DNA of 64,000 nucleotides from Streptomyces sp. NBC_01217 (lineage in GTDB: Bacteria > Actinomycetota > Actinomycetes > Streptomycetales > Streptomycetaceae): assembly GCF_035994185.1 (NCBI RefSeq), contig NZ_CP108538.1, positions 7,567,501 to 7,631,500 on the forward strand, written 5' to 3'. A program made the translations under genes and the position numbers. Under the pieces are notes generated by a model. It was not told the origin of the DNA, searched no databases, and worked only from the letters and a program-made list of their open reading frames with translations. Below, one piece after another: positions 34,075-61,149 of the stretch. Numbering within the stretch: position 1 is the stretch's first letter; every line of letters starts with the position of its first letter.

Positions 34075-35334
34075 ATGACGATTTTCGCCGACCTCGAATC
34101 AGAGGTCCGCAGCTACAGCCGGCTTTGGCCGGTCATGTTCGACCGAGCGGCAGGCAGCCGGCTGTACTCCGAGGACGGCCGGCCCTACCTGGACTTCTTC
34201 ACCGGCGCTGGTGCGCTCAACTACGGCCACAACGACCCCCACCTCAAGCAGGCCCTGTTGGACTACATCGTCCGGGACGGCGTCTCCCACGCACTGGACA
34301 TGTTCACCGTGGCGAAGCGGGACTTCCTGGAAGCCCTGCAGGACGTCCTCCTGGCTCCGCGAGGGCTCGAGTACAAGGTGGTGTTCCCCGGCCCGGGCGG
34401 AGCGAACGCGGTCGAGGCCGCTCTGAAACTCGCCCGGCGGGTCACCGGCCGGCAGTCGGTGGTGAGCTTCACCAACTCCTTCCACGGGATGACCCTGGGT
34501 GCCCTCTCGGTCAGCGGCAACAGGGGGAAACGCGCGGCCGCTGGCGTGGCCCTGACCCTGGCGTCCGCGCTGCCCTACGACGGCTACCCGGGCATCAGGG
34601 AAAGCGGCCCGTGTCATCTCGACCGGCTGCTGTCGGACGCGGGCAGTGGGCTGGACCGGCCCGCCGCCGTCATCGTGGAGACTGTTCAGGGCGAGGGCGG
34701 GCTCAGGGCCGCCGACGCGGGCTGGCTGCGCGAACTGGCCGACGTGTGCGCACGGCACGAGGTGCTGCTCATCGTGGACGACGTCCAGATGGGCTGCGGC
34801 CGCACCGGACCGTTCTTCAGCTTCGAGGACGCCGGGATCACTCCCGACATGGTGTGTCTGTCCAAGTCCATCGGAGGGTTCGGCCTGCCGCTGGCACTCA
34901 CCCTCATCCGGCCGGAACTCGACGTCTGGCAACCGGGCGACCACAACGGGACATTCCGCGGGGTCAGCGCGTCCTTCGTGACCGGAGCGCAGGCACTGCG
35001 CTCCTACTGGAGCGACGGGACGCTCGAGAAGTCCGTTCGGGAGCAGGGGGACCGGATCGCGGGGGCCTTGGCCGCCGTCGTCGAGGAGCACCCCGACGCG
35101 GGTCTGGAGGTTCGGGGCCGGGGGTTCGCGGCCGGACTGCGGCTCCCCGCGCCTGGCGCCGCCCGCGCGGTGTGTGCCGCGGCCTTCGACAACGGGCTGC
35201 TCATGGAGACGTCCGGGGCGGCCGACGACGTCGTGAAGCTGCTGCCCCCGCTCACCATCAGCGACGACGATCTGAGCGAGGGACTCGTCACCATCCGTCA
35301 CTGCGTGGGCCAGGTACTCGCGCGGAGCAAGTGA
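34075..35334 (+). CDS. ectB: EctB-like L-2,4-diaminobutyrate:2-oxoglutarate aminotransferase
   Basis: A 419-residue class III PLP enzyme. Lys264 in CLSKSIGGFGLPLAL is the Schiff-base lysine, and IVDDVQMGCGRTG binds the cofactor. The N-terminal MTIFADLESEVRSYSR and the GAGALNYGHN block are very close to ectoine-pathway EctB. EctB turns L-aspartate semialdehyde into diaminobutyrate. There is no ectA or ectC in the window, so the amine is probably a building block rather than ectoine. First gene of the run that includes the preQ0 genes. Confidence 0.85.
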   Translation: MTIFADLESEVRSYSRLWPVMFDRAAGSRLYSEDGRPYLDFFTGAGALNYGHNDPHLKQALLDYIVRDGVSHALDMFTVAKRDFLEALQDVLLAPRGLEYKVVFPGPGGANAVEAALKLARRVTGRQSVVSFTNSFHGMTLGALSVSGNRGKRAAAGVALTLASALPYDGYPGIRESGPCHLDRLLSDAGSGLDRPAAVIVETVQGEGGLRAADAGWLRELADVCARHEVLLIVDDVQMGCGRTGPFFSFEDAGITPDMVCLSKSIGGFGLPLALTLIRPELDVWQPGDHNGTFRGVSASFVTGAQALRSYWSDGTLEKSVREQGDRIAGALAAVVEEHPDAGLEVRGRGFAAGLRLPAPGAARAVCAAAFDNGLLMETSGAADDVVKLLPPLTISDDDLSEGLVTIRHCVGQVLARSK

Positions 35335-35346
35335 GAGGTCACTGCT

Positions 35347-36342
35347 GTGCCAGGCAAAATACCCGAGGTCGACCTTGAGGCGTGGCGTGACGCGTCCGAC
35401 GCCGAGCGGGTCCCGATTGCCGCGCGACTCGACGCCGCGCTGCGCGACACCGGTATGTTTCTCGTGTCCGGACACGGTGTGCCGCAAGCCGTCAACGACG
35501 ACTTCCGGGCCACCGCCAAACAGTTCTTCGCCCTGCCCAAGGTGGTCAAGACCCAGTACGCCATCGGAGCCGCCTACGACAGCGGGTGGCTCGAGATGCA
35601 TCCCCCCGGCGGGGTCGGAGTGCCGGTGAACGAGGGCGAGCAGGCGTCGAGCGCACCGGACCTCCACGAATCGTTTTACGTGGGACCCGGTCACCGCACT
35701 GGCGACGAACAGCGGGACCGGTTCAACTATCCGGCGAACCGCTGGCCGGCTGAGCTGACGGAACTACGGACGGCCGCAGACGCGTACACGGCGCACATGC
35801 TGCGCGTGGTGCAGGCCGTCAACGAGGTGCTCGCCGTCACCCTGGGACTGCCGGAGGACTTCTTCACCTCGCGGGCGCGGATGGCGACGTGGACGCAGAA
35901 CGCGAGCTGGTACCCGTCGTACGCGGCCGTCGGGGAGGTCGCTCGCGGGCAGTTCCGCAACGGGCCACACACGGACCTTGGCACCGTCACGCTGCTGAGC
36001 CGCCAGCGGGGGGTGGGCGGGTTGCAGGTGTGGAACGAGAAGGACGGCTGGTTCTCGCCGCCGTACAGCCCCGACTCGCTGATCGTCAACCTCGGTGACC
36101 TGATGGAGCTGTGGACCGACGGGCGCTGGCGGGCCCTGAAGCACCGGGTGCTGCCGCCCAGCCCGGACGCTCCGGACGAGGAACTGCTGTCGCTGGTTTT
36201 CTTCTTCGAGACCGACCCCGACACGCTGATCGAGCCGCTGGCCGCCCCGGTCGGCGGCGGCCGGGGGCTGCCGCCGGCGTATGCGCGGCGGTCGGTGCTC
36301 GAAAAGCTCGGCGTCTTTCCCGACTCCCTCCCGGTGGGCTGA
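35347..36342 (+). CDS. Isopenicillin N synthase-like Fe(II) oxygenase
   Basis: 331 residues with the DIOX_N region (IPEVDLEAWRDASDAERVPIAARLDAALRDTGMFLVSGHGV). The iron ligands are His208, Asp210 (NGPHTDLGTVTLL) and His266 (ALKHRVLPP). Such enzymes hydroxylate, desaturate or cyclise small substrates. GTG 35347 lies 12 bases after the ectB stop behind GAGAGG. queC follows after 3 bases. It could act on diaminobutyrate or a 7-deazaguanine adduct; neither is shown. Confidence 0.88.
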   Translation: MPGKIPEVDLEAWRDASDAERVPIAARLDAALRDTGMFLVSGHGVPQAVNDDFRATAKQFFALPKVVKTQYAIGAAYDSGWLEMHPPGGVGVPVNEGEQASSAPDLHESFYVGPGHRTGDEQRDRFNYPANRWPAELTELRTAADAYTAHMLRVVQAVNEVLAVTLGLPEDFFTSRARMATWTQNASWYPSYAAVGEVARGQFRNGPHTDLGTVTLLSRQRGVGGLQVWNEKDGWFSPPYSPDSLIVNLGDLMELWTDGRWRALKHRVLPPSPDAPDEELLSLVFFFETDPDTLIEPLAAPVGGGRGLPPAYARRSVLEKLGVFPDSLPVG

Positions 36343-36345
36343 ACC

Positions 36346-37026
36346 ATGAGCAGAATCGTTGGTGTGGTGTCCGGTGGGATCGACTCGGTCACTATGGCGC
36401 ACCACCTCGCTGCCGAGGGTCACGACCTCCACTTGCTGGCCGTCGACTACGGTCAGCGCCACCGCAAGGAACTCGTGTTCGCCGCCGCTGCCGCGGACCG
36501 GCTCGGCGCAACGTACGAAGAGGTCGATCTCGGCTCGGTGCGAAACGTCATGCGCGGATCGTCGCTGACGGATCCGGCCGTGGCCGTGCCCCGTCCGGGC
36601 CGCCCCGCCTGGGGCAACCCGAACATCGTGCCGAACCGGAATGCCGTACTGCTGTCGGTGGCCTTCGCGCTCGCCGTCAGCGTGCAGGCCGACGCCGTCG
36701 CCTTCGGCGTCATGGCCGAGGACGTCGGCCCGTCCGATACCTCCCCGGAGTTCCTACGGCTCTTCCTCGACATGGAGCGGGCGGCGACCAAGGGGTCGCT
36801 CGCGCCCGATGTCGAGCTGCTCGCGCCGCTGATCGAGCTGCCGAAGACCGGAGTCGTCGCCCTCGGTCAGAAGCTCGGCGTGCCCTGGGAGCAGACGTGG
36901 ACCTGCTTCCGTGGCGAGGACATCCACTGCGGCGCCTGTGCGGCGTGTGTGGAGCGCCGCGGAGCCTTCGCTGACCTGGGCATCACGGACCCGATGCCCT
37001 ATCGCGAACCGTGCACGCCGCGGTGA
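36346..37026 (+). CDS. queC: 7-cyano-7-deazaguanine (preQ0) synthase QueC
   Basis: 226 residues. The PP-loop VVSGGIDSVTMA (SGG at 9-11) binds ATP, and VPNRNAVLLSVA is the family motif. Cys187, Cys195, Cys198 and Cys201 form the zinc site (TCFRGEDIHCGACAACVERR). It converts 7-carboxy-7-deazaguanine to preQ0 in two ATP-dependent steps through an amide. All key residues are present. Starts 3 bases after the oxygenase gene. Confidence 0.95.
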   Translation: MSRIVGVVSGGIDSVTMAHHLAAEGHDLHLLAVDYGQRHRKELVFAAAAADRLGATYEEVDLGSVRNVMRGSSLTDPAVAVPRPGRPAWGNPNIVPNRNAVLLSVAFALAVSVQADAVAFGVMAEDVGPSDTSPEFLRLFLDMERAATKGSLAPDVELLAPLIELPKTGVVALGQKLGVPWEQTWTCFRGEDIHCGACAACVERRGAFADLGITDPMPYREPCTPR

Positions 37027-37075: not shown

Positions 37076-37789
37076 GTGGAAGCGGAACTGGTAGTCAACG
37101 AGATCTTCGGCCCTACCGTCCAGGGCGAAGGCCGGTCCCTGGGGCGCAGGTGCGCGTTCCTGAGGCTTGGCGGCTGCAACCTGTCGTGCACCTGGTGCGA
37201 CACGCCGTACACGTGGGACTGGACGGGGGCGGGTGACTCCGGCATCAAGTACGAGCCCCGTGAGGAGCTGCACCGCCGTCCCGTCCGCGAGGTGGCCCAG
37301 GAACTCCTCGCCTTCGGCGTCGAGTTGATCGTCATCTCCGGAGGAGAGCCACTCGGCCAGCAGAACCGGCTGGTCCCCCTGGTCGAGCTGCTCACGGCGC
37401 ACGGCCTGGAGATCGAGATCGAGACCAATGGCACACACGCCGCCGACCCGGCCCTGGTGGCCGCCGGAGTCCGCTTCAATGTCTCGCCGAAGCTGGCCCA
37501 CTCCGGCGATCCCGCCCACCGGCGGATCGTGCCGGCCGCGCTGAAGGCCCTCGCAGCGACGGAGGGCGCCACGTTCAAGTTCGTCTGCCGTGACGTCGGC
37601 GATTTGGACGAGGTGGCAGTGCTGGTCGAGGAGTTTGGGCTCCGTTCGGTCTGGATTATGCCGAAGGGGCAGACCGGCGCCGAGGTGAGCCGACACATGA
37701 CCGAACTGGTTGACGCGGTGATCGCACGAGGCTGGAACTTGACCACACGCCTGCACACCTTGTTGTGGGGCGACACGCGAGGCGTCTGA
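37076..37789 (+). CDS. queE: 7-carboxy-7-deazaguanine synthase QueE (radical SAM)
   Basis: 237 residues from GTG 37076, chosen for the AAGGAGA 8-14 bases upstream. The Fe-S cluster cysteines are Cys34, Cys38 and Cys41 (GGCNLSCTWCDTPYTWDW). The GGEP motif (VISGGEPLGQ) binds SAM. It rearranges 6-carboxytetrahydropterin to 7-carboxy-7-deazaguanine (CDG). The product is a free carboxylate, a possible substrate for the ATP-grasp ligases farther right. Confidence 0.95.
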   Translation: MEAELVVNEIFGPTVQGEGRSLGRRCAFLRLGGCNLSCTWCDTPYTWDWTGAGDSGIKYEPREELHRRPVREVAQELLAFGVELIVISGGEPLGQQNRLVPLVELLTAHGLEIEIETNGTHAADPALVAAGVRFNVSPKLAHSGDPAHRRIVPAALKALAATEGATFKFVCRDVGDLDEVAVLVEEFGLRSVWIMPKGQTGAEVSRHMTELVDAVIARGWNLTTRLHTLLWGDTRGV

Positions 37790-37828: not shown

Positions 37829-38191
37829 ATGACGCTGCGCATTACGAAGAAGTTCGAGTTCTCTGCCAGCCATCAGCTGTCCGGCCTGGCCGAGGACCAT
37901 CAGTGCGCTCGGCTGCACGGCCATAACTACGTGGTGGAGCTGGAGCTGAGCGCCGACCTGACGGAGCTGACGCCGACGGGATTCGTCCGTGACTACGGCG
38001 AGCTGTCCACCTTCAAGTCGTGGCTCGACCGGACGCTCGACCACCGGCACCTCAACGACCTGGTGGACAGCAACCCGACCGCCGAGAACCTGGCGGTGTG
38101 GCTCTACGAACGCTGGACCAAGGAACTCCCGGAGCTGACGTCCGTGCGCATCTCCGAGACCCCCAAGACCTGGGCCGAGTACCGGCCCTGA
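37829..38191 (+). CDS. queD: 6-carboxytetrahydropterin synthase QueD
   Basis: 120 residues. Zinc ligands His15 (FSASHQL), His30 and His32 (LHGHNY), with catalytic Cys26 in CARLHGHN, fit QueD rather than eukaryotic PTPS. It converts dihydroneopterin triphosphate to 6-carboxytetrahydropterin. RBS GAAAGG upstream. Between queE and folE, so the four preQ0 genes are consecutive. Confidence 0.95.
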   Translation: MTLRITKKFEFSASHQLSGLAEDHQCARLHGHNYVVELELSADLTELTPTGFVRDYGELSTFKSWLDRTLDHRHLNDLVDSNPTAENLAVWLYERWTKELPELTSVRISETPKTWAEYRP

Positions 38192-38290: not shown

Positions 38291-38881
38291 ATGGCTACGA
38301 CATGGGTGCAAGAAGGCGACATCGAGTCGGAGAAGCTGCAGGAGGAAGACCCGCTGGTGGGACTCGCCCGGCAGCTCCTGAAGGAGATCGGAGAGGATCC
38401 CGACCGCGACGGGCTCCGCGACACGCCGACGCGGTTCGCCCGCTGGTGGCGTGAGTTCATCAACTACGAAGCGGGGTCGGTCGGGACTCTGTTCGAGTCG
38501 GTCGGCACCCAGCAGCTTGTGGTCGTCTCGGACATACAGGTCTGGTCCCTCTGCGAACACCACCTGCTGCCGTTCAACTGCTCGGTGACGATCGCTTACC
38601 GGCCGACCGACCGGCTCCTCGGTCTGTCGAAGTTCGCCCGGATTGCCCACCGGCACGCGCACAAGCTCCAGGTCCAGGAGCGCTTGGTCTCCGAGATCGC
38701 CGAGGACATCGCCATGCTCAGCGGGACGGAGGACGTGGCCGTCATCGCCAAGGGCGAGCACCTGTGCATGACGATGCGCGGCATCAAGGCGGCGGCGGAG
38801 ATGACCTCGACGGCGTACCGCGGCGCCTTCAGCGAGAACGCCGAACTGCGGGGCGAGCTGTTCAACCTGCTGCGTTCCTGA
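38291..38881 (+). CDS. folE: GTP cyclohydrolase I (FolE)
   Basis: 196 residues. Cys88, His91 and Cys159 (SLCEHHLLPF and EHLCMTMRG) are the zinc ligands, and the SKFARIAHRHAHKLQVQERL block is the usual active-site region. It makes dihydroneopterin triphosphate from GTP, the entry step to 7-deazaguanine. A Streptomyces chromosome normally has another folE for folate, so this is a dedicated copy. ATG 38291 follows GGAGAGG; frames open farther upstream are not needed. Confidence 0.95.
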   Translation: MATTWVQEGDIESEKLQEEDPLVGLARQLLKEIGEDPDRDGLRDTPTRFARWWREFINYEAGSVGTLFESVGTQQLVVVSDIQVWSLCEHHLLPFNCSVTIAYRPTDRLLGLSKFARIAHRHAHKLQVQERLVSEIAEDIAMLSGTEDVAVIAKGEHLCMTMRGIKAAAEMTSTAYRGAFSENAELRGELFNLLRS

Positions 38882-38973: not shown

Positions 38974-40404
38974 ATGAAAACATCTTTGGTGTCAGGCATC
39001 AGCCGGATCTCCCCCCGGCCCTCGCAGCGGGAGACGCCGGTGACCCTGCACCGCCAGCCGACCGCCGCCGGTGAGTCGATCGGACAGGGCGTCCCGGAGG
39101 GCTTCCGCCCGGGCTGGGCCGACAGCGAGGGAACAGGGGTCGCGCCCTTCGGTCGGCGACTGCGCGACCTGCGGTTGCAGGTCGGACTGTCCCAGACGCA
39201 GCTGGCACGCTCCAGTACGCTCAGCGTACGGGCCATACGCGACCTGGAGAACGGGAGGGTGCGGCACCCGCGGGCGGACTCCCTGCGCCTCCTCGCCGAC
39301 GCCCTCGGCCTCAGCACCCTCCAGATGAGCCGGCTGGCGAACGACCATGCGCCCGGCTTCCCGGCGGAGGAGGCCGAGCCAGCCGTGAGCGGTCCGTTCC
39401 TCGGCCGAGACCAGGAGTTGGCGGCGCTGACGACCATGCTCGGCGCCGAACGCCACCGCCTGGTCACGATCACCGGCATCGAGGGCGTCGGCAAGACACG
39501 GCTCGCGCGGGAGGTGGCGCACGCGCTCAAGACTGCCGAGCACACGGCCGTCTTCTGGCTGCCCCTCCACGACGACCTGCGCAGCGACGGACGGGCACCG
39601 ACGGGGACGCCGTCGCCGCCCAGGTGGTTGCGTGGAGCCGCGCGCTTCGGACCCGACAGCCGCCGGCGCCTCGCCGAGACCGTCGGGGAGGCGGACGGCC
39701 TGCTTGTCCTCGACGGTGCGTGTCCCGAGGACGAGGCGGCGGACGTCGCGGCCGAACTTCTGGCCGTGTGCCCCCGGCTGCGGATCATCGTCACGACGAG
39801 GAACCACGTCGGCATGCCCCTCGACACGATCTTCCCCCTCGCACCACTCCAGGTCCCCGCGTACGACACGGAGTGGGCGGACCTCGAGAAAGTGGCGTCG
39901 GTGGCGCTGTTGCTCACCCAGGCCAAGCGGTTCCAGCCGTCCTTCCGTCCCGACCCCCAGGTGCTCACCAACGTGGCCCGGATCTGCCGCGCGCTCGACG
40001 GCCTCCCCGCCGCACTCGAGTCCGCCGCCCACTGGAGTCTGATCTACTCCCTGCGGCAGCTCGCCCACCAACTCACCACCGAGCCGCTCGCCCTCGCGCG
40101 CCGACCCCGCAGCGGCCCCCAGCAGTCCGATGCCTACGCGTCGATCCACCACACGATCGCCACGCTGAATAGCCGCCAGCGCGAACTGCTCTCGGTCATG
40201 TCTGGGAGAACGTCCCGCACCAGGGACGGTTACTGGTCGGTGCAGGAGGTGGCGGACACGATGGGCCTGACCGCTGCGGAATGCGCCGACGACATCTACC
40301 ACCTCCTCATCTTCGGCATCCTCCGCCGCGTCGAACATGACGACGTGGCGATGTTCCGGGTGCTCAATATCGTCAGCATCGCCGGACAGCGGGCAGCCGC
40401 CTGA
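38974..40404 (+). CDS. XRE / NB-ARC pathway regulator
   Basis: 476 residues from ATG 38974 (CGAGGAG upstream). An XRE helix-turn-helix spans ~58-115 (GRRLRDLRLQVGLSQTQLARSSTLSVRAIRDLENG). An NB-ARC ATPase starts with the P-loop TGIEGVGKTRLA at ~168, and the MHD/TPR part is short. Such AfsR-like STAND proteins switch on nearby biosynthetic genes. There is no SARP domain, so it binds DNA through the XRE domain. It follows folE by 92 bases. Confidence 0.85.
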   Translation: MKTSLVSGISRISPRPSQRETPVTLHRQPTAAGESIGQGVPEGFRPGWADSEGTGVAPFGRRLRDLRLQVGLSQTQLARSSTLSVRAIRDLENGRVRHPRADSLRLLADALGLSTLQMSRLANDHAPGFPAEEAEPAVSGPFLGRDQELAALTTMLGAERHRLVTITGIEGVGKTRLAREVAHALKTAEHTAVFWLPLHDDLRSDGRAPTGTPSPPRWLRGAARFGPDSRRRLAETVGEADGLLVLDGACPEDEAADVAAELLAVCPRLRIIVTTRNHVGMPLDTIFPLAPLQVPAYDTEWADLEKVASVALLLTQAKRFQPSFRPDPQVLTNVARICRALDGLPAALESAAHWSLIYSLRQLAHQLTTEPLALARRPRSGPQQSDAYASIHHTIATLNSRQRELLSVMSGRTSRTRDGYWSVQEVADTMGLTAAECADDIYHLLIFGILRRVEHDDVAMFRVLNIVSIAGQRAAA

Positions 40405-40431: not shown

Positions 40432-41307
40432 GTGCGACTGTGCACTCTCCGCACCGAGACCGGTGAAGACGTCGGCGTTTCGGTACCCGGCGGGATCGCC
40501 GGACTGAGCCTCGTCAACGCGACTGCCGGCACCCACTACGGCCCCACCCTGCTGGACGTCATCCGAAAGGGCGAGGCCGCCGCCCTCGCGGCGACGATCG
40601 CCTCCCTGCCCGACCTTGAGGTGCCGGACGTCCTGGCCGGCCCGGACTTCGGACCGCTGTACCAGTACCCGCCAAAGCTGTGGGGCGTCGGCCTGAACTA
40701 CCGGCGCCACGCCGACGACCTGGGAGTGCGCCAGCCCAACGACGCCCCCGGGTCCTACCTGCGTCCGCCGTCCACGGTCATCGGCTACGGCGACGACATC
40801 CTGCTGCCCAGCCAGTCGCAGCGCGTGACGGCCGAAGCCGAACTCGGCGTGGTCATCGGCACGACCTGCCGCGACGTGGCACCCGAGAACGCCCCGTCCG
40901 TCATCTTCGGCTACACGACCGTCCTGGACATGACCGCCGAAGACGTGATACGCATCAACCCCCGGCACATCCCCTGGGCGAAGGCCTTCGACACCTTCTG
41001 CAGCATCGGTCCCTGGGTCGTCACCCCAGACGAGATCCCGGACCTGTCGGCCGTGCGCATCTCCACCGTCGTCAACGGGGAGACGATCGCCTCCAACCAG
41101 GTATCCTCCATGATGTACGACCCCTACTGGCTGGTCGGCTACTTCTCCGGCGGCATGGTCCTCGAAGCCGGCACCGTGATCGCCACGGGAACCCCCGGTG
41201 CGGGCGTCATCGAGGACGGGGACACCGTGGAAGCCCGCGTCGAAGGCGTCGGCGACCTGCGCAACACCGTCCGGCTCGCGCGGCCGCGCCCCGTTGCCCA
41301 CTCCTGA
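40432..41307 (+). CDS. Fumarylacetoacetate hydrolase (FAH)-family protein
   Basis: 291 residues from GTG 40432. The metal site is formed by acidic residues in VTAEAELGVVIG and the later LDMTAEDV, with GVGLNYRRHADDLG and GTVIATGTPGAGV also family-typical. FAH-fold enzymes cleave or decarboxylate 2-oxo acids or tautomerise them. As the locus also encodes a DRE-TIM aldolase, a role in handling a 2-oxo acid is possible. It starts 27 bases after the regulator. Confidence 0.85.
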   Translation: MRLCTLRTETGEDVGVSVPGGIAGLSLVNATAGTHYGPTLLDVIRKGEAAALAATIASLPDLEVPDVLAGPDFGPLYQYPPKLWGVGLNYRRHADDLGVRQPNDAPGSYLRPPSTVIGYGDDILLPSQSQRVTAEAELGVVIGTTCRDVAPENAPSVIFGYTTVLDMTAEDVIRINPRHIPWAKAFDTFCSIGPWVVTPDEIPDLSAVRISTVVNGETIASNQVSSMMYDPYWLVGYFSGGMVLEAGTVIATGTPGAGVIEDGDTVEARVEGVGDLRNTVRLARPRPVAHS

Positions 41308-41322
41308 GCACGGCCGACGGGC

Positions 41323-42134
41323 TCAACCGGCGGACGCGGCCACCGCGTCCGGACGGTCAGTCAGGAAGTCGAGCACCAGCGGGCCAGCGACGGCTCGGAA
41401 CTCCTCGAAGTAGGCGTGCCGGGCGCCCGAGATCAACCGCATCCGCGCGAACGGGATGCGGCCGGCGAGCAACGGGGCGTTGGCCGTTGGGTTCAGCCGG
41501 TCGTCCGTGCCGTGCATCACCAGCGTCGGCGCCGTGATCGCCGGCAGCAGCGGCCAGCCGTCGTGGCCGTCGCTGGCGCGACGATGCCCTCGCCGTGCGT
41601 GCGCCGGCATCGTCGGGTCGCCCAGCGTGGAGTGCGGACCGGGGTGCGCGGCCAGATAGGCCGGCGTGTACATCAGCTCCTCCACGGCCCGCCGGGAGGC
41701 GGCCTGGTCCGACTGGGCCAGCGACCTTCGTACGTTGGCGTCCCGCTCGATCCCGTGCTCTCCGCCGGGCGAGGTGCAGCCCAGCACCAGCGCGCGCACC
41801 CGCCGCGCGTGCCGTGCGGCTAGCCACTGCGCGACCCGTCCGCCCATAGAGGTGCCGTACACGTCGGCGCGGTCGATTCCGAGGTCGTCCAGCACCGCCA
41901 CGACGTCCTCGGCGAACGTCTTGGTGCTGTAGCCCCGGGCTGGCCGGTCGCTGTCCCCGGTGCCCCGGTAGTCGATCGTGACCGTCGTGCGGACGTCGCA
42001 GAAGTCCTCGCGGACGGCGTCCCACCAGTGGTGGTTGTTGGCCTGGCCCGCCAGCAGCACCAGCGGCGGGCCGACCCCGGTGCACTGGTAGGCGATGCGC
42101 ACGCCGTCGCGGCCCTGCGCTGTCGAGGAGACCG

Positions 42135-42138
<4 letters not shown>
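41323..42138 (-). CDS. Alpha/beta hydrolase
   Basis: 271 residues. Nucleophile elbow [13 protein letters not shown], acid in [10 protein letters not shown], histidine in [11 protein letters not shown]. It resembles the 3-oxoadipate enol-lactonase/haloperoxidase-like group. Its start codon overlaps the stop of the upstream HisC-like gene (TCAT), so both are co-translated. It converges with the FAH gene across 15 bases. The substrate is unknown. Confidence 0.82.
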
Positions 42139-43243
<1,105 letters not shown>

Positions 43244-43645: not shown

Positions 43646-43704
43646 AGGAACTTATCTCCTGTCAGGCGTGGTAGCGGTGGGGCGGGCGAGTGAGGGCGGG
43701 CAGT

Positions 43705-54025: not shown

Positions 54026-54940
54026 GTGGCAAAGATCCTCACTCAGTCGCAGGTTGATTTCTACCGTGAGAACGGGTTCTGCGTCGTCGATGGGATATTC
54101 GACACCGAACTGATAGATAGGGCGCGTGCCGTCGTTGACGGCCTGCTCTCCTCCGCCGACCTCGCCAGTGTGGCCGAGGCTGAACCGGAGGACGGCACCA
54201 AGGCGCGCCGTATCTGGGCTCCGACCTCGCGGGACGAGCTCTTCGCGGCCATCGCGGAGGACCCCCGGCTCCTCGACGCGGTGGAGCAGCTGATCGGCCC
54301 CGACATCGTGCTGCAGTACTCGAAGCTCAACGTGAAGCCGCCACGCGTGGGCAGCGTGGTCGAGTGGCACCAGGACTTCGCGTTCTACCCTCACACGAAC
54401 ACCGACCTGGTCGCCACGCTGATCTATCTGGACGAGGCGACCCGGGAGAACGCCTGTCTGCGGGTTCTTCCCTGCTCACACCGGAACGGCCTGCTCGACC
54501 ATGAGTCGGAGGGGCATTTTGTGGGCAAGGTCTCGTCGCCGGCGGACGTGGGTCTGGACGAGTCGGCGGTCGTCGACTGTGAGGGTTCCGCGGGATCGGT
54601 GGTGTTTATCCACCCCCTGCTCCTGCACTCGTCGGAGAAGAATCTCTCGGAGCTGTACCGCCGCGTCTTCATTCCGTCCTACCGCGCGGCCGACGCCCTT
54701 CCCATCTACTACGGTCCACATGCCGCACACAACGAGCCCACGGCGAAGCTCGTCCGCGGCAGGGCCTCCAGGTCTGTACGCAGCGAGGCTGGCCAGTGGC
54801 GGCTCCCGATCGCGGCGGCGGAGTTCAACTCCCTGTACCAGGTCCAGGAAGGCTCCCACGTCGGTGACGGGACCAAGTCGTCGACCGGGTACTTCTCGCA
54901 CGAGGCCGACCCGAAGGGCGCCGTGGCCGCCTCGATGTGA
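54026..54940 (+). CDS. PhyH-family Fe(II)/2-oxoglutarate oxygenase
   Basis: 304 residues from GTG 54026. Iron ligands His115 and Asp117 (EWHQDFAFYPH) and His201 (HPLLLHSSEKN), so the triad is complete. The NACLRVLPCSHRNGLL core is typical of PhyH hydroxylases acting on amino-acid-like or peptide substrates. It heads the plus-strand operon that contains the ATP-grasp genes. Confidence 0.9.
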   Translation: MAKILTQSQVDFYRENGFCVVDGIFDTELIDRARAVVDGLLSSADLASVAEAEPEDGTKARRIWAPTSRDELFAAIAEDPRLLDAVEQLIGPDIVLQYSKLNVKPPRVGSVVEWHQDFAFYPHTNTDLVATLIYLDEATRENACLRVLPCSHRNGLLDHESEGHFVGKVSSPADVGLDESAVVDCEGSAGSVVFIHPLLLHSSEKNLSELYRRVFIPSYRAADALPIYYGPHAAHNEPTAKLVRGRASRSVRSEAGQWRLPIAAAEFNSLYQVQEGSHVGDGTKSSTGYFSHEADPKGAVAASM

Positions 54941-55086: not shown

Positions 55087-56340
55087 ATGACCGGCTCACT
55101 TAACGGAACGCCTGCCGTCGTGCTGATGGACCCCTGCGGGCCGAGCATGGGTTTCAAACCCCAGGTGACCGAGCGGGGAATGGCCGTGATCTCCATTTAC
55201 ACGATGCCCCCCGATCACCTCCAAACCCGGTATCCCGACCACGCGGTGGGTGACACGGTCAGCCTCTACAGCGCGGAACTCGGCGAGATTCGGGCGAAGC
55301 TCGCCGAGCTGGGCGCCGACATCCGCGCTGTGGTCCCCGCCTCCGACGTGGCCGTGGACAAGGCGGACACGCTGGCCGAAGAGTTCAGCCTGCCCGGCAA
55401 CGGCGCGAGGCTGGCCCCTGCCCGCCGGGACAAGTCCGCGATGCGGGAGACCGCCGCGCGGGCGGGACTTCGCATCCCCCGTTACGTGATGGTCGAGGAC
55501 GCGGCCGACATCGGCAGTGCCGCCCGCGAGGTGGGCTTTCCCGCTATCGCCAAGCACACGGCCGGGGCCGGGTCGCACGGTATCCGGCTGCTGAACGAGC
55601 CCCAGGACGCCCAGGACCTCTCGGCCCTGCAGCTGACCGACCACTTCGGACGCCGGGTCGAAGCCTGGTTGGTCGAGCAGTACGTGCGCGGCCGCGAACT
55701 GGGCGTGAACCTCTTCTCGCACGACGGCGAGCACCACGTACTAGACGTCTGGGAATACCGGCAACCGGACGACCAGAACTACTCGTTCCCCTACTGGGAG
55801 TGGGCGCAGATCACCCAGGACGACCCTGACTGGCACACCGCCGTCGACTACGTTCAGCAGGTGCTCGACACATTTGGCGTGCGGCTCGGCCCCAGTCACA
55901 CCGAGATCAAGATCATGGATGGCAGGGCCTACCTCATCGAACTGGGCACTCGTCTGCCCGCCTACCCCATGATTGACGCGTGGATCGAGCACAGCGACCT
56001 CGACCCTCACCGCCAGGTCCTGGCCAGCCGGCTGGGCGAGGTACCGAGAATCGCGGCCGAGCCAGTGAAGTTCGACAGCTTCTGCGGCGCCAACGCCATT
56101 CGCCACGACGGACCGCCCGGCCGGCTGGTGGAGATCCGCGGCCTGGACAGGGTGGAGCGACTGCCCGGCGTGGACAAGCTGGTGGTGCGCTATCAGGCGG
56201 GCGACCTGGTGCCGACGACCGCCAGTATCCCGACCATTCCTCTCAGGGTGAGCGTGTCCGCACCGGACCGCCAGGAACTGCTCCGCCGCATGGCCGCGGT
56301 CCGCAACACTGTGGAACTCGTGATCGAACCGGTCGGCTGA
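55087..56340 (+). CDS. ATP-grasp ligase 2
   Basis: 417 residues from ATG 55087 (AAGGAG upstream). ATP-grasp motifs: FPAIAKHTAGAGSHGI, WLVEQYVRGRELGVNLFS, SHTEIKIMDGRAYLIELGTR. It shares VRGRE and LDVWEYRQPD with ligase 1 and is clearly its paralog, though the metal-site segment differs (IELGTRLPAYP versus IELAPRFSGG). It probably activates a related carboxylate. Confidence 0.85.
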   Translation: MTGSLNGTPAVVLMDPCGPSMGFKPQVTERGMAVISIYTMPPDHLQTRYPDHAVGDTVSLYSAELGEIRAKLAELGADIRAVVPASDVAVDKADTLAEEFSLPGNGARLAPARRDKSAMRETAARAGLRIPRYVMVEDAADIGSAAREVGFPAIAKHTAGAGSHGIRLLNEPQDAQDLSALQLTDHFGRRVEAWLVEQYVRGRELGVNLFSHDGEHHVLDVWEYRQPDDQNYSFPYWEWAQITQDDPDWHTAVDYVQQVLDTFGVRLGPSHTEIKIMDGRAYLIELGTRLPAYPMIDAWIEHSDLDPHRQVLASRLGEVPRIAAEPVKFDSFCGANAIRHDGPPGRLVEIRGLDRVERLPGVDKLVVRYQAGDLVPTTASIPTIPLRVSVSAPDRQELLRRMAAVRNTVELVIEPVG

Positions 56341-56380: not shown

Positions 56381-57712
56381 GTGGCCGACAACGAGGGCGA
56401 TGCCGCGGGGGCGAACGCCGTCTCCACCGACGTCAGAGGCCTGTCCGGCGAAAGTTGCGGAATGCTGAAGTTCTTTGCCTCCTATCAGCGGCTCTTTTCA
56501 CTGCCACGATTCGGCTTGTCCTTGTTCGCGGCCGCCGCGAGCAAGCTGAAGATCGGAATCTCCTCGGTCGCCCTCCTGCTCGAGGTCGCGCATTATCGGG
56601 GTTTCGATCAGGCGGCCGTCGTGGTCTCCGTGTCGGCGCTGGCCGGAGTCACCGTTCCGCTGAGGGGCAGGCTCATGGACCGCTACGGTTACGCCTTGGT
56701 GATGTGTCCGTCTCTCGTGGCGTATCTGGGTGCGCTGGCTGCCCTGGTGCTGAACGAAAGCGCACGGGGACCGTTCGCCATTACGGCGATCTGCGCGTTC
56801 GCCGCATCGGCGTTCATTCCACCCATCCAGATCGTGACCCGGCTGATGTGGCGGGCGATGACCACTGGCGAACTCCGCGCGACCGCTCTGGCGTTGGATG
56901 CGGTGTTGACCGACGTGGGGTATATTGTGGGCCCGACCATCGCTGCCTTTCTGGTGGTGGCGGTCGCACCCTGGGCCGGACTGGCCGCCTCCGCCCTGCT
57001 CACCACCAGCGCTACCCTCCTGCTCCTCTCCCGAGGTCTGCCCCACCAGCGCAGAACGCCACGATCCGCACAGCGGCAGCGAAATCTGCTGGGACCGCTG
57101 AACAATCGGGCGTTGCGCGGGACGATGACAGCCGTGATGTGCTTCTTCATGGCAGTCCGGGCGATCGAATTGGCCTATCCCGCCTGGGCTCAGCAGCGTG
57201 ATTCGCCACTGATGGGCGGAGTCCTCCTCAGTTGTATGTCGGTGGGCAGCGTAGTGGGCGGCCTCGTCCTAGGTGCGTTGCCAGCGCAGCGAAAGGTCTG
57301 GGCGACCTTCCCTGTCACGCTGGCCGTGCTGTGTGTGGGAACCGTGCTCGTCACGGCGGCCAGCTTTACCTGGACGGCGGTCGTGGTCGTTGCCGCGGCG
57401 TTCATGGGCGTTGCGGTGGGGCCGAGTTTCGTGGGCCTGTACGCGACGGTCGGCGACCTGTCGCCGGCGAACATGGCCGCGGAAACGCAGTCGTGGCTCA
57501 GTACGTCCGTGTCGTTGGGCGGAGCCGCCGGAGCAGCGGTCAGCGGCGTGATCATCCAGGCACTAGGCCCCGGGGCGTTGATGGCGTTCGCGGCGGTGTC
57601 CCTGGCCATCGCGTCCTGGGTGGCGTACCAAGCCATCAAGAACAATTCGGAAACAGGGGAACAGGTGTCGGGAGCCGATACCCAGAGCACCATGAATATG
57701 GGGACACAGTGA
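56381..57712 (+). CDS. MFS transporter, probable exporter
   Basis: 443 residues from GTG 56381, with about 12 hydrophobic segments after a polar start (a later ATG at 56462 is possible). The motif PLRGRLMDRYGYAL is the MFS loop 2-3 signature. It lies inside the ATP-grasp operon and overlaps the next gene by GTGA, so export of the product is a reasonable inference. Confidence 0.85.
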   Translation: MADNEGDAAGANAVSTDVRGLSGESCGMLKFFASYQRLFSLPRFGLSLFAAAASKLKIGISSVALLLEVAHYRGFDQAAVVVSVSALAGVTVPLRGRLMDRYGYALVMCPSLVAYLGALAALVLNESARGPFAITAICAFAASAFIPPIQIVTRLMWRAMTTGELRATALALDAVLTDVGYIVGPTIAAFLVVAVAPWAGLAASALLTTSATLLLLSRGLPHQRRTPRSAQRQRNLLGPLNNRALRGTMTAVMCFFMAVRAIELAYPAWAQQRDSPLMGGVLLSCMSVGSVVGGLVLGALPAQRKVWATFPVTLAVLCVGTVLVTAASFTWTAVVVVAAAFMGVAVGPSFVGLYATVGDLSPANMAAETQSWLSTSVSLGGAAGAAVSGVIIQALGPGALMAFAAVSLAIASWVAYQAIKNNSETGEQVSGADTQSTMNMGTQ

Positions 57713-58926
57713 CTCGTCAGCGGGTGGCTCTTTTGAGCCACGTTGGTTACGACGCCTACCGCCACGATGATGGCAGCCCTTTCTTCCCTCCGGATGAATA
57801 CGACATCACCCTGTTCGCGCGGCCCCGCGACGTCGCCCAGTTGGCGCCCGGACGTGTGAGCCGCTCCATTCCTATGGACCTCCACCCTTCCGGCGAGGTC
57901 GCGGTGCCACTGCCAGCACTGGTCGGCGACCTCAAATTCGACTGGGTGGTGGCGACCCAGGAGCGGCTCCTGCTGCCGGCAGCGCGACTGCGCGAAACCC
58001 TCGGCGTAGGTGGCATGGGCACGGAGCACACGCTGTTGCTCCGTGACAAGGTGGCGATGAAGCGTCACTTCTCGTCTTGTGGCATCCGGGTTCCGGAGTT
58101 CACTCCAATCTCCGAACCCCACGAGGCGGAAGCGCTGCTCGACAAGTTCGGCCGCATCGTCATCAAACCCGTCCTCGGCTCCTCCTCTCTGGACGTGCAC
58201 ATCGTGCGTGATCTGAGCGAGCTGATGCGCTTGCAGCGGCAGGGGTTCGCCAGTTCGGACCGGTACGAGGCCGAGGAGTTCATCGAGGGTCGCCAGTTCC
58301 ACGTCGACAGCGTTGTCAAGAACGGAGTGCCGGTTGCCGTCTCCGTATCGCAGTACCTGGATTCACACGAATCGTTCCCGCTGAACGGGCAGGTGCGGTC
58401 GCACACCATCGACGACGGGCCGGACCTCGACGTTCTGCTGGAGTTCAACCGCACGGTACTCGGGTGCATCGACTGGTTCAGCGGCGCCGCACACCTCGAA
58501 GTATTCCTCGATGACCGCGGCAGGCCGGTGTTCTGCGAGTTGGGCGGCCGCCCCGGCGGCGCTGGAATCGACACCACGTTCCGCTACCGTCACGGGGTCT
58601 CCCTGTACTTCTCCAGCATCTTGCCCCAGATCGGGCGCCCTGTCCCAGACCGTGTCCGTCAGGCGCCTGCGGACCAGCCGGCGACCGGTTGGGTCATGAT
58701 CTACCCGCCGAGACTGGGGCGCTTCGACGGGTTCGACGCGCTTCCGCGGGCTGAGTGGCTGATCCAGCTCACGACGCCTTACCGCCCGGGTGAACTCGTC
58801 AGGCGCCCCAGGCAGGCCAAAGACGCGATCGCGGTCGCGTCCGTCTGCGGCAAGGACTCACGTGAGGTGGTCGACCGGCTCGCCGAGGTTAAGGACGAGA
58901 TGGTTGTGTCCATGACCCCGGTGTGA
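57709..58926 (+). CDS. ATP-grasp ligase 3
   Basis: 405 residues from GTG 57709, overlapping the MFS stop. ATP-grasp motifs: RIVIKPVLGSSSLDVHIV, YEAEEFIEGRQFHVDSVV, and the metal site HLEVFLDDRGRPVFCELGGRPGGAGI. It belongs to a third subtype, distinct from ligases 1 and 2, similar to BacD/L-amino-acid-ligase-type proteins. All catalytic positions look intact. Confidence 0.85.
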   Translation: MTRQRVALLSHVGYDAYRHDDGSPFFPPDEYDITLFARPRDVAQLAPGRVSRSIPMDLHPSGEVAVPLPALVGDLKFDWVVATQERLLLPAARLRETLGVGGMGTEHTLLLRDKVAMKRHFSSCGIRVPEFTPISEPHEAEALLDKFGRIVIKPVLGSSSLDVHIVRDLSELMRLQRQGFASSDRYEAEEFIEGRQFHVDSVVKNGVPVAVSVSQYLDSHESFPLNGQVRSHTIDDGPDLDVLLEFNRTVLGCIDWFSGAAHLEVFLDDRGRPVFCELGGRPGGAGIDTTFRYRHGVSLYFSSILPQIGRPVPDRVRQAPADQPATGWVMIYPPRLGRFDGFDALPRAEWLIQLTTPYRPGELVRRPRQAKDAIAVASVCGKDSREVVDRLAEVKDEMVVSMTPV

Positions 58927-59242: not shown

Positions 59243-60169
59243 ATGCTCTCCCCATCTCCCCCCAGACTCTTCTGGCTGCGCTCGGAACGCGACTACACCT
59301 CAGTCGCGGCGGCCGAGGAGGCGCGCACAGCAGCCTTGACCGCAGCCGCGGCGAACCTCGGTCTCGACTTTCACACGGCCACGGTCGACGACGTGGTGGT
59401 GACCCAGGTGGGAGAGACAGCCCTCGTACGTGTGCAGGGCGACCGCGTGGACTCGCGCGGCGTGTTCTTCCACCCCGGCTCGCTCGGCAGGCCCGCCCAG
59501 GCACCGGAAGCCTGGCGGCTCCTGAGCACCATGGGGATTCTCGAAGCTGCCGGGTTCATGGTCACCGTGCCTGCCGTGCACGCGATCAACTGGACCGACG
59601 CGATCGTGCCGCTTATCCGGTTCGACCTCGGCGAGGTGCGCACCCTGCCGTCGGTGCGGCTGTGCACCCGTGAGATCGAGGTCCATCGCGACCGGCTGCG
59701 CATCGCTGACTGGGGACTGCAATTCCCAGTGACCGTGCGCCCGGCGGTCCGCCGGCCCGGTGATCGAGTCTTCATCGCGGAGAGTGAACGCAGGCTGACC
59801 ACCCTCCTCCAGTTGGTGGGCGCTTCCGAGCTGACAGTCCTCGTGCAGCCGTGGCTCGGCGAGCACGTCGTCGAGCACGTCGTGGTGTGCATCGACGGGG
59901 AGCCGACCGGTCTAGAGGGGAAGCTGGGGGAGCGGCTGTCCCTCCCTGCGCGATCGGTCGCGGCCGAACTTGGGCTCGCCTACGTCCGAATCGGGTTCGT
60001 GGAGGACGCCGATCGGTTCTGGCTGTCCCACGTGGACTGCACGGGCTTCGCGTCCGACCTCGACGCCGACGCCGTCGGAGTCCAGTTGGCCGCCTACCGC
60101 GAAGCGTTCCATCGGTTCCGTGCCGAGAGTGACGCGGTTTCGGCCTCGGCACTGGGAGGAGGAGCATGA
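59243..60169 (+). CDS. Degenerate RimK-like ATP-grasp protein (probable non-catalytic partner)
   Basis: 308 residues. It aligns along its length with the next gene (both start PPRLFWLRSERD / VTMFWIRSERES and share VQPWLG and VDGEP/IDGEP). The catalytic features are missing: FPVTVRPAVRRPGDR replaces the lysine-glycine loop FPVVVKPSSWGGGNS, and SHVDCTG replaces the metal-binding EIEVDGG. Its stop overlaps the next start by ATGA. It may be a structural or substrate-binding subunit. Confidence 0.75.
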   Translation: MLSPSPPRLFWLRSERDYTSVAAAEEARTAALTAAAANLGLDFHTATVDDVVVTQVGETALVRVQGDRVDSRGVFFHPGSLGRPAQAPEAWRLLSTMGILEAAGFMVTVPAVHAINWTDAIVPLIRFDLGEVRTLPSVRLCTREIEVHRDRLRIADWGLQFPVTVRPAVRRPGDRVFIAESERRLTTLLQLVGASELTVLVQPWLGEHVVEHVVVCIDGEPTGLEGKLGERLSLPARSVAAELGLAYVRIGFVEDADRFWLSHVDCTGFASDLDADAVGVQLAAYREAFHRFRAESDAVSASALGGGA

Positions 60170-61149
60170 TCATTGCTCCCGACCCCGTCACGATGTTCTG
60201 GATTCGCTCCGAGCGCGAGAGCAAGTCACCGAATCCCTTCGACGCCGAGATCAACTCGCGCTACGACGCCGCCACGCGCAAAGCCGGCGTACTGCTGTCA
60301 CGGATCAGTGTCGACGACGTCGTCGTGGGCACCACGAAGGGCGAGGCCTCGGTCCGCGTGCGCGGCGACCTCATCGCACCTGACTCGGCGTTCTTCCATA
60401 CGAAGCTGGTCACGTGGCCCGTCGACCGGTTCGATTACTGGCGGCACCTGACGACCTACGCCGCCCTGTCAGCGGCCGGTTTCTTCACCACGGTCCCTGT
60501 CGGACTGAGCCTGATCAATAACGAGAAGCTGCTCACCGGGCTTCGGCGGTTCGGCAGTGCGGTCCGGCGGCTGCCGACGGTGCGCCTGGGCACCCGTGGG
60601 TACGGCCCGGACCATCTTGACTGGTGTACCGCCGAGATGCGCGCAAACGACATCGATTTCCCGGTGGTCGTGAAGCCCTCCAGCTGGGGAGGCGGGAACA
60701 GCGTGTTCGTCGCCTCCGACGCCGGAGAACTCGACACCGTGTTCACCTGGATGGCCGCTGCCGAGATGACGGTCGTGGTACAGCCGTGGCTCGGACGGGA
60801 CGTAGTCGACTACCGGGTGTTCTACGTCGACGGTGAGCCGTACCGCGTGCTGACGCGTCAACCGAGAGGCGACGCGCTCGCGGGCAACGTGGGCCAGGGC
60901 GGTGTGGCAGGGTGGACAACCATCCCCGATGCACTGGTCGATCCGGCCAGGGCGGTGGCCGACGACATCGAACTTCCCTACCTTTGCGTCGACTTTCTCT
61001 ACGCCGGAGGGCAATGGTGGTTCTCCGAGATCGAGGTCGACGGCGGCACCACCCAGGGTGACCATCACATGACCGAGGTGCGCTTCCGCTCGTACCGCTC
61101 ACGCTTCGACAGGTTCGTCCGCGGTCTCCGGTCGACTGGCACGCGGTAA
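60166..61149 (+). CDS. RimK-like ATP-grasp ligase (active partner)
   Basis: 327 residues. Intact ATP-grasp motifs: FPVVVKPSSWGGGNSVFV, TVVVQPWLGRDVVDYRVFYVDGEP, and the metal site YLCVDFLYAGGQWWFSEIEVDGG. RimK/LysX enzymes add amino acids to a carboxylate through an acyl phosphate. It is coupled to the degenerate paralog and is the last intact biosynthetic gene before the IS region. Confidence 0.8.
   Translation: MIIAPDPVTMFWIRSERESKSPNPFDAEINSRYDAATRKAGVLLSRISVDDVVVGTTKGEASVRVRGDLIAPDSAFFHTKLVTWPVDRFDYWRHLTTYAALSAAGFFTTVPVGLSLINNEKLLTGLRRFGSAVRRLPTVRLGTRGYGPDHLDWCTAEMRANDIDFPVVVKPSSWGGGNSVFVASDAGELDTVFTWMAAAEMTVVVQPWLGRDVVDYRVFYVDGEPYRVLTRQPRGDALAGNVGQGGVAGWTTIPDALVDPARAVADDIELPYLCVDFLYAGGQWWFSEIEVDGGTTQGDHHMTEVRFRSYRSRFDRFVRGLRSTGTR

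Follow-up and report, generated by a model that had tools for sequence, protein, structure and literature searches.

Homologues of folE, queD, queE and queC are common to the toyocamycin, tubercidin and huimycin clusters and to the locus described here. In the huimycin cluster, which also has a glycosyltransferase, they are huiB and huiD-huiF, according to the available text of PMC7439116. E. coli QueC needs two tyrosines: as described in the part of PMC13329287 that is available, the Y131A and Y189A variants make no queuosine and Y131F is partly active, while no Y189F mutant is reported in that part. The QueC fold is also that of Cap9, from type IV CBASS, a ligase which links 7-carboxy-7-deazaguanine (CDG) to the N-terminal glycine of a protein, and which features a glutamate at the Tyr189 position.

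The window, i.e. the whole stretch of DNA analyzed (64,000 nt), derives from Streptomyces sp. NBC_01217 (GCF_035994185.1, NZ_CP108538.1, positions 7,567,501-7,631,500, forward strand); the studied interval covers window positions 34075..61149. Genes were called and scanned with Pfam and NCBIfam profiles; the Pfam scan covered the 24 proteins of the interval plus 8 downstream proteins. The features are reported in Table 1. As proposed in the initial annotation, the ectB-like, IPNS-like, queC, queE, queD and folE genes are consecutive; with three ATP-grasp ligases (LAL1, LAL2, LAL3), they are a single conserved cluster. The reading we favor, to which a probability of about 0.5 is assigned, is that this cluster is a mobile-element-scarred member of an actinobacterial family making conjugates of 7-deazaguanine with amino acids or peptides.

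Table 1. Features of the studied interval (window coordinates), with the matches on which each assignment is based.
Feature	Position	Strand	Evidence
EctB-like diaminobutyrate transaminase, copy 1	34075..35334	+	TIGR02407 608 bits (cut-off 552); G080 protein 85% identical
IPNS-like 2OG/Fe(II) oxygenase	35347..36342	+	Pfam DIOX_N, 2OG-FeII_Oxy
QueC homologue without Tyr131/Tyr189 (E. coli numbering)	36346..37026	+	Pfam QueC 153 bits; motif tables; tree
QueE, 7-carboxy-7-deazaguanine synthase	37076..37789	+	Radical_SAM; top NCBIfam TIGR03365, 100 bits, below cut-off 206
QueD, 6-carboxytetrahydropterin synthase	37829..38191	+	PTPS; TIGR03367 87.5 bits, slightly below cut-off 89.25
FolE, GTP cyclohydrolase I	38291..38881	+	Pfam GTP_cyclohydroI
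HTH/ATPase regulator	39040..40404	+	HTH_3, AAA_16; counterparts in G080, L066, G729
FAH-family enzyme	40432..41307	+	FAA_hydrolase; 87% (G080), 66% (L066)
Alpha/beta hydrolase	41323..42138	-	Abhydrolase_1
hisC-like aminotransferase, split over two frames in the window	42135..43237	-	tblastn with G080 protein
Aldolase-like HMGL gene, duplicate copy	43705..44739	-	Travels with first LAL1 codons
KedN5-family B12 radical SAM protein	47351..49255	+	NF033712 974 bits (cut-off 700)
LAL1, ATP-grasp L-amino-acid ligase	51418..52665	-	ATP-grasp_4 and LAL_C2; deazaguanine-linked clade
HMGL/4-hydroxy-2-oxovalerate-aldolase-like enzyme, original place	52743..53777	-	HMGL-like
PhyH-type 2OG oxygenase	54026..54940	+	Pfam PhyH
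LAL2, ATP-grasp L-amino-acid ligase	55087..56340	+	ATP-grasp_4 and LAL_C2; deazaguanine-linked clade
MFS exporter (predicted)	56381..57712	+	Pfam MFS_1
LAL3, ATP-grasp ligase	57709..58926	+	ATP-grasp_4; LAL_C2 26.9 bits, below cut-off 29.4, scanned from 57874
RimK-like paralogue	59243..60169	+	36% identical to product of 60166-61149; no Pfam/NCBIfam match
RimK-like ATP-grasp protein	60166..61149	+	Pfam RimK

The B12 radical SAM protein and the MFS exporter named in the initial annotation are both present, as are its five ATP-grasp proteins: three with LAL_C2 (for LAL3, below the cut-off), one RimK-like and one paralogue of the latter. LAL1 and LAL2 exceed the cut-offs for both ATP-grasp_4 and LAL_C2, and the LAL3 start was reassigned to a GTG overlapping the MFS stop, where the alignment of the G080 protein begins (57709). 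The aldolase is found as two copies of a 4-hydroxy-2-oxovalerate-aldolase-like HMGL gene, 99.9% identical, as are the segments containing them (43550-44837 and 52588-53875). Its top solved relatives are 4-hydroxy-2-oxovalerate aldolases, and it also adjoins PhyH in L066; for the IPNS-like oxygenase, the top solved relative by sequence is an ethylene/succinate-forming enzyme (E 7e-31). PhyH oxygenases had been listed in the plural: one lies in the interval, the other outside it, at 25788-26588.

The cluster is one unbroken run in G729, a genome from a different genus, and nearly unbroken in G080, from the same genus. Both feature matching genes in matching order, with no recognized transposase gene between them. 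The alpha/beta hydrolase gene is located at the cluster's far end in both; the hisC-like gene is intact in G080, while none was called in the G729 region. The window copy, in contrast, is fragmented by several insertion sequences, holds the duplicated segment and extends about 9.5 kb beyond the window end, where methyltransferase, second EctB, methylaspartate-mutase-like, TauD-like and cyclase-like genes are found: the G080/G729 cluster genes absent from the window are located directly downstream. Insertion sequences and duplication might also indicate two unrelated clusters, brought together by chance. This explanation, to which hardly any credence can be given, is refuted by the ordered presence of the set in G729 and G080, and the gene set is confirmed to be more than a chance neighborhood.

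The same comparison limits the idea of a pathway embracing the whole island. It stands for the preQ0-type genes and the three LALs, but for the RimK-like pair and for the B12 radical SAM gene the cluster regions of G080 and G729 offer no match. RimK-like ATP-grasp relatives (E<=1e-30) are found in 4 of 295 genomes and KedN5-family relatives in 9 of 295, own genome included in each case. A pathway that includes each of the five ATP-grasp proteins is therefore unsupported, the RimK-like pair being unmatched in both regions and rare in the genus; the B12 radical SAM protein is probably a passenger, judging from its distribution.

A LAL2-like ligase (E<=1e-50) is present in 8 of the 295 same-genus genomes, own included, and in 6 of the 8 it shares its cluster with deazaguanine genes; in G172 and G281 such genes are missing. 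A broader scan through the ligase yielded 28 loci, of which six distant ones (L088-L093, only L090 being displayed) were left out of the count. Deazaguanine and ligase genes occur together at 11 of the remaining 22, the other 11 representing another kind of locus, without deazaguanine genes. The ligase is thus not invariably accompanied by them. Yet the two gene sets, far from never co-occurring, are together at these 11 loci and at all 20 loci described below, and this co-occurrence supports the single pathway for deazaguanine genes and ATP-grasp ligases suggested in the initial annotation.

EctB and the IPNS-like gene form a recurrent sub-module, found at 10 of 20 loci. Putative amino-acid supply genes are of several kinds: EctB, LysA/DapD/aminotransferase-like, threonine-aldolase-like, methylaspartate-mutase-like and, judged by eye, dihydroxyphenylglycine-like. 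By gene content, the window set resembles a merger of two types of module found apart elsewhere: the first (EctB, IPNS-like, LAL1) is present in G005, L072 and L076, the second (FAH, aldolase-like, PhyH, LAL2, LAL3) in L066. This separate occurrence would also fit two products made at one locus, the first module working with deazaguanine and the second without it. Such a division is improbable: in L066, where the second module occurs by itself, queC, queD, queE and folE are present as well, so that both modules are linked to deazaguanine.

Genes of the folE, queD, queE and queC type are also used to make tRNA queuosine or to modify DNA, and a second folE-queE-queD set is located elsewhere in the same genome. 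For the window locus this role is rejected, its probability being close to nil: own-genome searches gave no TGT-family match (PF01702; controls positive in 14 of 14 genomes, although a distant DpdA-type enzyme could be missed) and no QueF match (controls positive in 8 of 14).

The deazaguanine genes had been described as a full preQ0 set. Homologues of queC, queE, queD and folE are indeed all present, but the completeness of the set is doubtful, because the window QueC lacks the two tyrosines needed by the E. coli enzyme. This protein and its relatives keep the canonical SGGxDS loop, YxQxHxxE, VPxRN and zinc-binding cysteines, and also Tyr35 and Arg99; the YPDC motif with an aromatic residue at 131 is absent from all of them. 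The window protein has a non-aromatic residue at 131 and, in place of the canonical Tyr189, a phenylalanine (E. coli numbering). QueC rows were gathered from four samples plus loci L049 and L050, with some same-genome repeats: of 98 rows, 67 (63 distinct) feature the YPD motif, containing Tyr131, and 31 (28 distinct) do not. All 31 Tyr-less rows contain YxQxHxxE and VPxRN; an SGG loop, with D or E, is seen in 29, the gene calls of the other two ending short there. An in-frame stop interrupts two of the Tyr-less queC genes (G199, G841).

Since the YPD motif was the criterion for the two groups, the lack or presence of Tyr131 is true by definition; the clade, the ligase link and the other positions serve as the tests. 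Position 189 is Tyr in all 67 Tyr131-bearing rows and in the reference, while in the Tyr-less rows it is Phe (29 of 31) or Leu (2 of 31); positions 94, 135 and 168 also differ between the groups. The 28 distinct Tyr131-less QueCs, including the window's, form one clade (100/99) in a tree of 92 distinct rows, where the long branches flagged lie outside this clade. The predicted model of the window protein finds its best fold matches in QueC and Cap9 structures, with Cap9-CdnD (9nto) ranking second. On the basis of these residues, the window protein is not a standard QueC.

With Tyr35, Arg99 and the zinc cysteines retained, window-type QueCs may still carry out nitrile synthesis. QueC would then still yield preQ0, the ligase-made peptide being joined to the base or acting beside it, and the tyrosine changes would be compensated drift. 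The aromatic residue kept at 189 in 29 of 31 rows is in line with this, as is the preQ0 base reported, in a conference abstract, from Streptomyces qinglanensis. Against it, the 31 rows have Pro, Ala, Gly or Val at position 131, where the alanine variant of the E. coli enzyme is inactive (PMC13329287), and the groups differ at four further positions (94, 135, 168, 189). A preQ0-making QueC is, on the whole, rather unlikely.

The Tyr-less QueCs are also set apart by their neighbors. An L-amino-acid-ligase-type ligase was found beside all 20 Tyr-less QueCs examined (within 10 kb in 19; at 15.4 kb in the window) and beside none of 29 Tyr-bearing ones. These neighborhoods cover 20 of the 31 Tyr-less rows; the 29 are 19 plus 10 phylum-wide loci, the latter also showing no ligase, some being on short contigs. 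In a second sample, from a QueC family search, the ligase is present at 11 of 11 Tyr-less and 0 of 8 Tyr-bearing QueCs. Eleven QueC rows had been found through the ligase, while the 20-locus table was drawn from QueC searches, which re-found three of those genomes. Two of the five ligase queries, and also the seeds of the ligase HMM, came from Tyr-less loci. This HMM has no match among the 423 proteins of the 19 Tyr-bearing loci and a single one among the 184 of the 10 phylum-wide loci. At L204, a Tyr-bearing locus, a 657-aa protein matches the HMM weakly (36.6 bits) and gives no match with ligase proteins. Because the Tyr-less QueCs are one clade, the correlation rests on few independent events.

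On the ligase side, the 18 deazaguanine-linked members of a set of 30 form one clade (100/99), requiring 1 change against 9.6 in shuffles, with none of 500 as low. Three ligase lineages accompany the Tyr-less QueC lineage, as seen in a second ligase tree whose bootstrap is unsettled and which includes a long RimK-like row. The ligase link also bears on a different outcome, in which QueC, using ammonia, stops at the primary amide, 7-amido-7-deazaguanine, to be used as a building block. The missing tyrosines, which the complete two-step reaction requires (PMC13329287), would agree with it; the amino-acid-ligase link at 20 of 20 loci would be left unexplained, and we consider this outcome to have a poor chance.

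The favored reading, that of conjugates with amino acids or peptides, may be laid out as follows. FolE, QueD and QueE would produce CDG, and EctB would supply L-2,4-diaminobutyrate; oxygenases, aldolase-like and mutase-like enzymes may produce or alter other unusual amino acids. QueC, whose changes fall at sites essential to the usual enzyme, may couple the base to amino acids rather than make a nitrile. The remodeled enzyme would activate the CDG carboxylate with ATP, like QueC and Cap9, transfer it to an amine on an amino acid or a short peptide and, in a Cap9-like manner, halt at the amide, with no nitrile preQ0 formed. From their family assignment, LAL1, LAL2 and LAL3 would form peptide bonds, either before or after the QueC step, with methylation and MFS export presumably following.

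If this reading is true, a modification of proteins in anti-phage defense, the deazaguanylation by Cap9, would be linked to natural-product chemistry; a small stand-alone enzyme coupling a nucleobase acid to amines would become available; and the 28 distinct QueC genes would flag clusters that may make new nucleobase-peptide compounds. Even if QueC makes preQ0, the clusters are a coherent deazapurine family, for which no product was found in the literature searched, and whose members are distinguished, among the sequences gathered, by two residue positions.

Among the literature matches listed, the window gene set is not described, and no known cluster corresponds to it as a whole. Compared with the toyocamycin and huimycin type, the window features ATP-grasp ligases and no sugar-attaching gene: phosphoribosyltransferase, PurA/PurB and glycosyltransferase families are absent among the 24 interval and 8 downstream proteins scanned with Pfam, and a toyocamycin-type nucleoside was rejected on these grounds. 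The toyocamycin-like loci G175 (where adenylosuccinate lyase and synthetase are two of the neighbors), G036b and G048b, moreover, retain Tyr131, unlike the window QueC. With the ectoine cluster, the window shares an EctB-like transaminase above the family cut-off; an ectoine cluster was nevertheless discarded, as only ectB-like genes, and no EctA or EctC family, are found among the 24 proteins, and EctC (PF06339) has no match in the genome, in a search run without positive control.

The ligases of the bacilysin (BacD), RizA and dapdiamide (DdaF) pathways have the ATP-grasp and LAL_C2 domains and the fold of the window ligases. The best matches of the LAL2 predicted model are RizA, BL00235 and YwfE/BacD, only 15-18% identical in the fold alignments. 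The window ligases differ by their fixed partnership with deazaguanine genes, which is not known as a feature of the BacD, RizA or DdaF pathways. Among compounds, echiguanine A is a 7-carboxamide bearing a basic side chain. This 7-deazaguanine compound from Streptomyces sp. MI698-50F1 is grouped with the deazapurine antibiotics in the available text of PMC6112128; no gene cluster for it was found among the literature matches listed.

Cap9 and the window QueC share the fold and an altered Tyr189 position, and the ATP-dependent activation of CDG by Cap9 is proposed likewise for the window protein. Position 189 is the only change common to Cap9 and the Tyr-less lineage, which mostly features Phe there. 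Cap9 is shorter, adjoins a CD-NTase gene (the 24 interval proteins scanned include no CD-NTase family) and keeps the stacking tyrosine (Y115), so the loss of Tyr131 is unnecessary for amide ligation; the partners of the window QueC are, instead, FolE, QueD, QueE and amino-acid ligases. We tentatively suggest, at somewhat less than even odds, that the Tyr-less lineage could be, after Cap9 and QatC, a third case of the QueC fold put to a new use, here natural-product synthesis and not phage defense: a lineage deazaguanylating free amino acids or small peptides, which would found a class of ATP-grasp-built 7-deazaguanine peptides, diversified by amino-acid supply genes.

The window lies at positions 7,567,501-7,631,500 of the 8.89-Mb main contig, in a genome of 9.03 Mb. 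The gene list of the initial annotation, with a preQ0 gene set, an EctB-like gene and five ATP-grasp proteins, is borne out by gene calling, Pfam and NCBIfam. Gene order is reported below, where LAL1-LAL3 indicate the three ligases of amino-acid-ligase type.

Layout of the cluster and of the sequences around it (window coordinates; rows in gene order)
Feature	Position	Strand	Remark
Upstream PhyH oxygenase and methyltransferase-like gene	25788-27405		transposase genes stand between them and the cluster
IS3-type element, two copies	30898-31964; 50305-51371		99.9% identity
EctB-like transaminase	from 34075		first of six consecutive genes
IPNS-like oxygenase	from 35347		between EctB-like gene and queC
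queC	start better set at 36346		followed by queE, queD, folE in a row
Regulator, then FAH-family enzyme			directly after folE
Rearranged stretch			after FAH gene: hydrolase, split hisC-like gene, second aldolase-like copy, insertion-sequence pieces, B12 radical SAM gene
hisC-like aminotransferase	42135-43237		broken across two frames
1288-bp segment, two copies	43550-44837; 52588-53875		aldolase-like gene and first codons of LAL1; 99.9% identity
KedN5-family B12 radical SAM C-methyltransferase	47351-49255		adjoins insertion-sequence pieces
LAL1 and aldolase-like gene		minus	after rearranged stretch
PhyH, LAL2, MFS exporter, LAL3			in this order, after aldolase-like gene
LAL3	start shifted to 57709
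RimK-like pair	59243-61149		after LAL3; first protein without Pfam match
IS110- and IS3-type transposase genes			after RimK-like pair

The deazaguanine and ligase genes form one cluster, not two. In G080, a genome of the same genus, the block from EctB to FAH is found in the same order, at 84% DNA identity; behind it come LAL1 and the aldolase-like gene, next cyclase-, TauD- and mutase-like genes, and finally PhyH, LAL2, MFS and LAL3. In G729, a genome of another genus of the same family, the entire set is contiguous, comprising also a methyltransferase and second EctB gene. The window genome has its methyltransferase gene, its second EctB gene and its cyclase-, TauD- and methylaspartate-mutase-type genes 1.6-9.5 kb beyond the end of the window, in altered order around a DDE_3-type transposase gene; the interval originally assigned to the cluster (34075-61149) therefore does not cover all of it, and this copy has undergone rearrangement. 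An SDR gene among these downstream genes is 64% identical to one in a Catenulispora cluster. The hisC-like aminotransferase, split here, is intact in G080 and none is called in the G729 cluster region; it is therefore possibly dispensable.

The near-identical duplicated segments point to recent insertion-sequence activity. No match to the RimK-like pair or to the B12 radical SAM gene is found in the G080 and G729 regions. Among 295 same-genus genomes, the window genome counted, relatives are found in 4 for the RimK-like pair (31-36% identical in the three others) and in 9 for the radical SAM gene, which probably derives from another cluster.

A LAL2-like ligase (E<=1e-50) is present in 8 of the 295 same-genus genomes, own counted, and in 6 of the 8 deazaguanine genes lie in the same cluster. 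A ligase-alignment scan of named genomes yielded 28 loci, of which the 22 closer ones are counted here; queC, queD, queE and folE are present at 11 of the 22 (Catenulispora rubra, Streptomyces viridochromogenes, S. graminilatus, S. rimosus, S. palmae, S. iconiensis, S. hiroshimensis, two more Streptomyces, a Kitasatospora and Streptantibioticus rubrisoli). In the ligase tree (n=30), the 18 deazaguanine-linked ligases form one clade (100/99), the link requiring one change, against 9.6 in shuffles (0/500 as low). The remaining 11 loci (L075, L077-L085, L087) lack deazaguanine genes; most contain a LAL, a second LAL3-like ligase, a protein of about 130 aa (AdoMetDC-like by eye) and one of about 477 aa, whose counterpart in G172 is a radical SAM protein.

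Amino-acid genes differ between clusters of the family: EctB with the IPNS-like gene is one set, while LysA-, DapD- and aminotransferase-like genes are found in L068, L086 and G199, a Beta_elim_lyase (threonine-aldolase-like) gene in G036, and a mutase-like gene in G080 and, by similarity, L067. The window combines an EctB/LAL1 module and a FAH/aldolase/PhyH/LAL2/LAL3 module, also found separately, each with its own deazaguanine genes: the former in G005, L072 and L076, the latter in L066. In S. iconiensis (L071) the cluster adjoins dihydroxyphenylglycine-synthesis-type genes and an amidinotransferase, all judged by eye.

QueC itself is altered. According to PMC13329287, canonical QueC requires Tyr35, Arg99, Tyr131 and Tyr189 (E. 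coli numbering), each alanine mutant yielding no queuosine in E. coli. We divided the QueC rows, 98 in all, according to the YPD motif, which holds Tyr131: it is absent in 31 and present in 67, a split which is a definition, not a test. Of the 92 distinct rows, which include the reference structure 2pg3, the 28 that are Tyr-less group as a single clade (100/99), with 1 change observed against 24.4 in shuffles. In another QueC tree (n=30), the 19 rows of the clade comprise 16 with ligases of the ligase clade and three whose ligase is more distant. An in-frame stop is present in two of the Tyr-less queC genes (G199, G841).

Tyr35 and Arg99 are retained in all 31 Tyr-less rows. Position 189, compared, like 94, 135 and 168, without using the mutant list, holds Tyr throughout the 67 Tyr-bearing rows, as in the reference, and Phe or Leu throughout the Tyr-less ones, 31 in number; the other three positions also distinguish the two groups. 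Cap9, the enzyme that attaches 7-carboxy-7-deazaguanine (CDG) to an N-terminal glycine, retains the stacking Tyr and the base-reading Asp, as reported in PMC13279940, and has Glu at the position of Tyr189. The change at 189 is thus common to the Tyr-less lineage and a known amide ligase, and that at 131, at the pocket mouth, is peculiar to the lineage. The model of the window QueC has a pLDDT of 81, falling to 54-69 in the neighbourhood of residues 81-100 and 121-150, where VPxRN and the former Tyr131 are located. Its best structural matches are QueC 2pg3, Cap9 9nto and QueC 3bl5.

Tyr-less QueCs are accompanied by ligases. The window QueC was searched against 396 phylum and 297 family genomes, after the pattern had been seen. 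Tyr131 is missing from 11 of the 55 motif rows that this added, and each of the 11 comes from the family set. An amino-acid-ligase-type ATP-grasp gene is present in 11 of these 11 neighbourhoods, against none of the eight Tyr-bearing ones fetched; two of the 11, judging by the length of their contigs, repeat earlier loci (G827 = L076, G711 = L086) and nine are new. Over 39 neighbourhoods, such a ligase lies within 10 kb of 19 of 20 Tyr-less QueCs and of 0 of 19 Tyr-bearing ones (Fisher 3e-10, an overstatement given that the Tyr-less genes share a single clade); the twentieth is that of the window, 15.4 kb from its ligase, with insertions in between. EctB (>60% identical) occurs at 10 of the 20 Tyr-less loci and the IPNS-like gene (>50%) at 12, against none of the 19 Tyr-bearing ones. 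Ten more Tyr-bearing loci, taken from the phylum sample, likewise have no such ligase; family f18, sister to the Tyr-less clade, accounts for seven of them, and one of the ten encodes a protein of 657 aa that matches the ligase HMM weakly. At six Tyr-less loci the closest ligase is of a different lineage, and at three of a third one, so that the partnership outlasted ligase exchange.

The most likely pathway is as follows. By family assignment, FolE, QueD and QueE would supply CDG, and EctB diaminobutyrate. The remodelled QueC would join CDG, through an amine, to an amino acid or a peptide, halting at the amide; the ligases would form peptide bonds, oxygenases and methyltransferase decorate the product, and the MFS protein export it. 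The chief rival to this reading is that QueC of the window type would still produce preQ0 from CDG.

Neither TGT (PF01702) nor QueF has a match in the window's genome; queuosine or modification by a PF01702 enzyme therefore does not account for the gene set, within a PF01702 search that could miss a distant DpdA-type enzyme. A second folE-queE-queD set (L108, genome positions 7351000-7370999, at 9923-11763), 40-50% identical to that of the window, has no queC beside it and an unrelated neighbourhood. No ribosyl- or glycosyl-transferase family turned up in the proteins scanned, 24 from the stretch and 8 from downstream. The gene cluster is a new form of the deazapurine antibiotic type. Its QueC lacks two defining features of the canonical family, and is not placed there; the CD-NTase partner of Cap9 is absent here, and the enzyme is not classed as Cap9, which it would nonetheless resemble in its proposed way of working.
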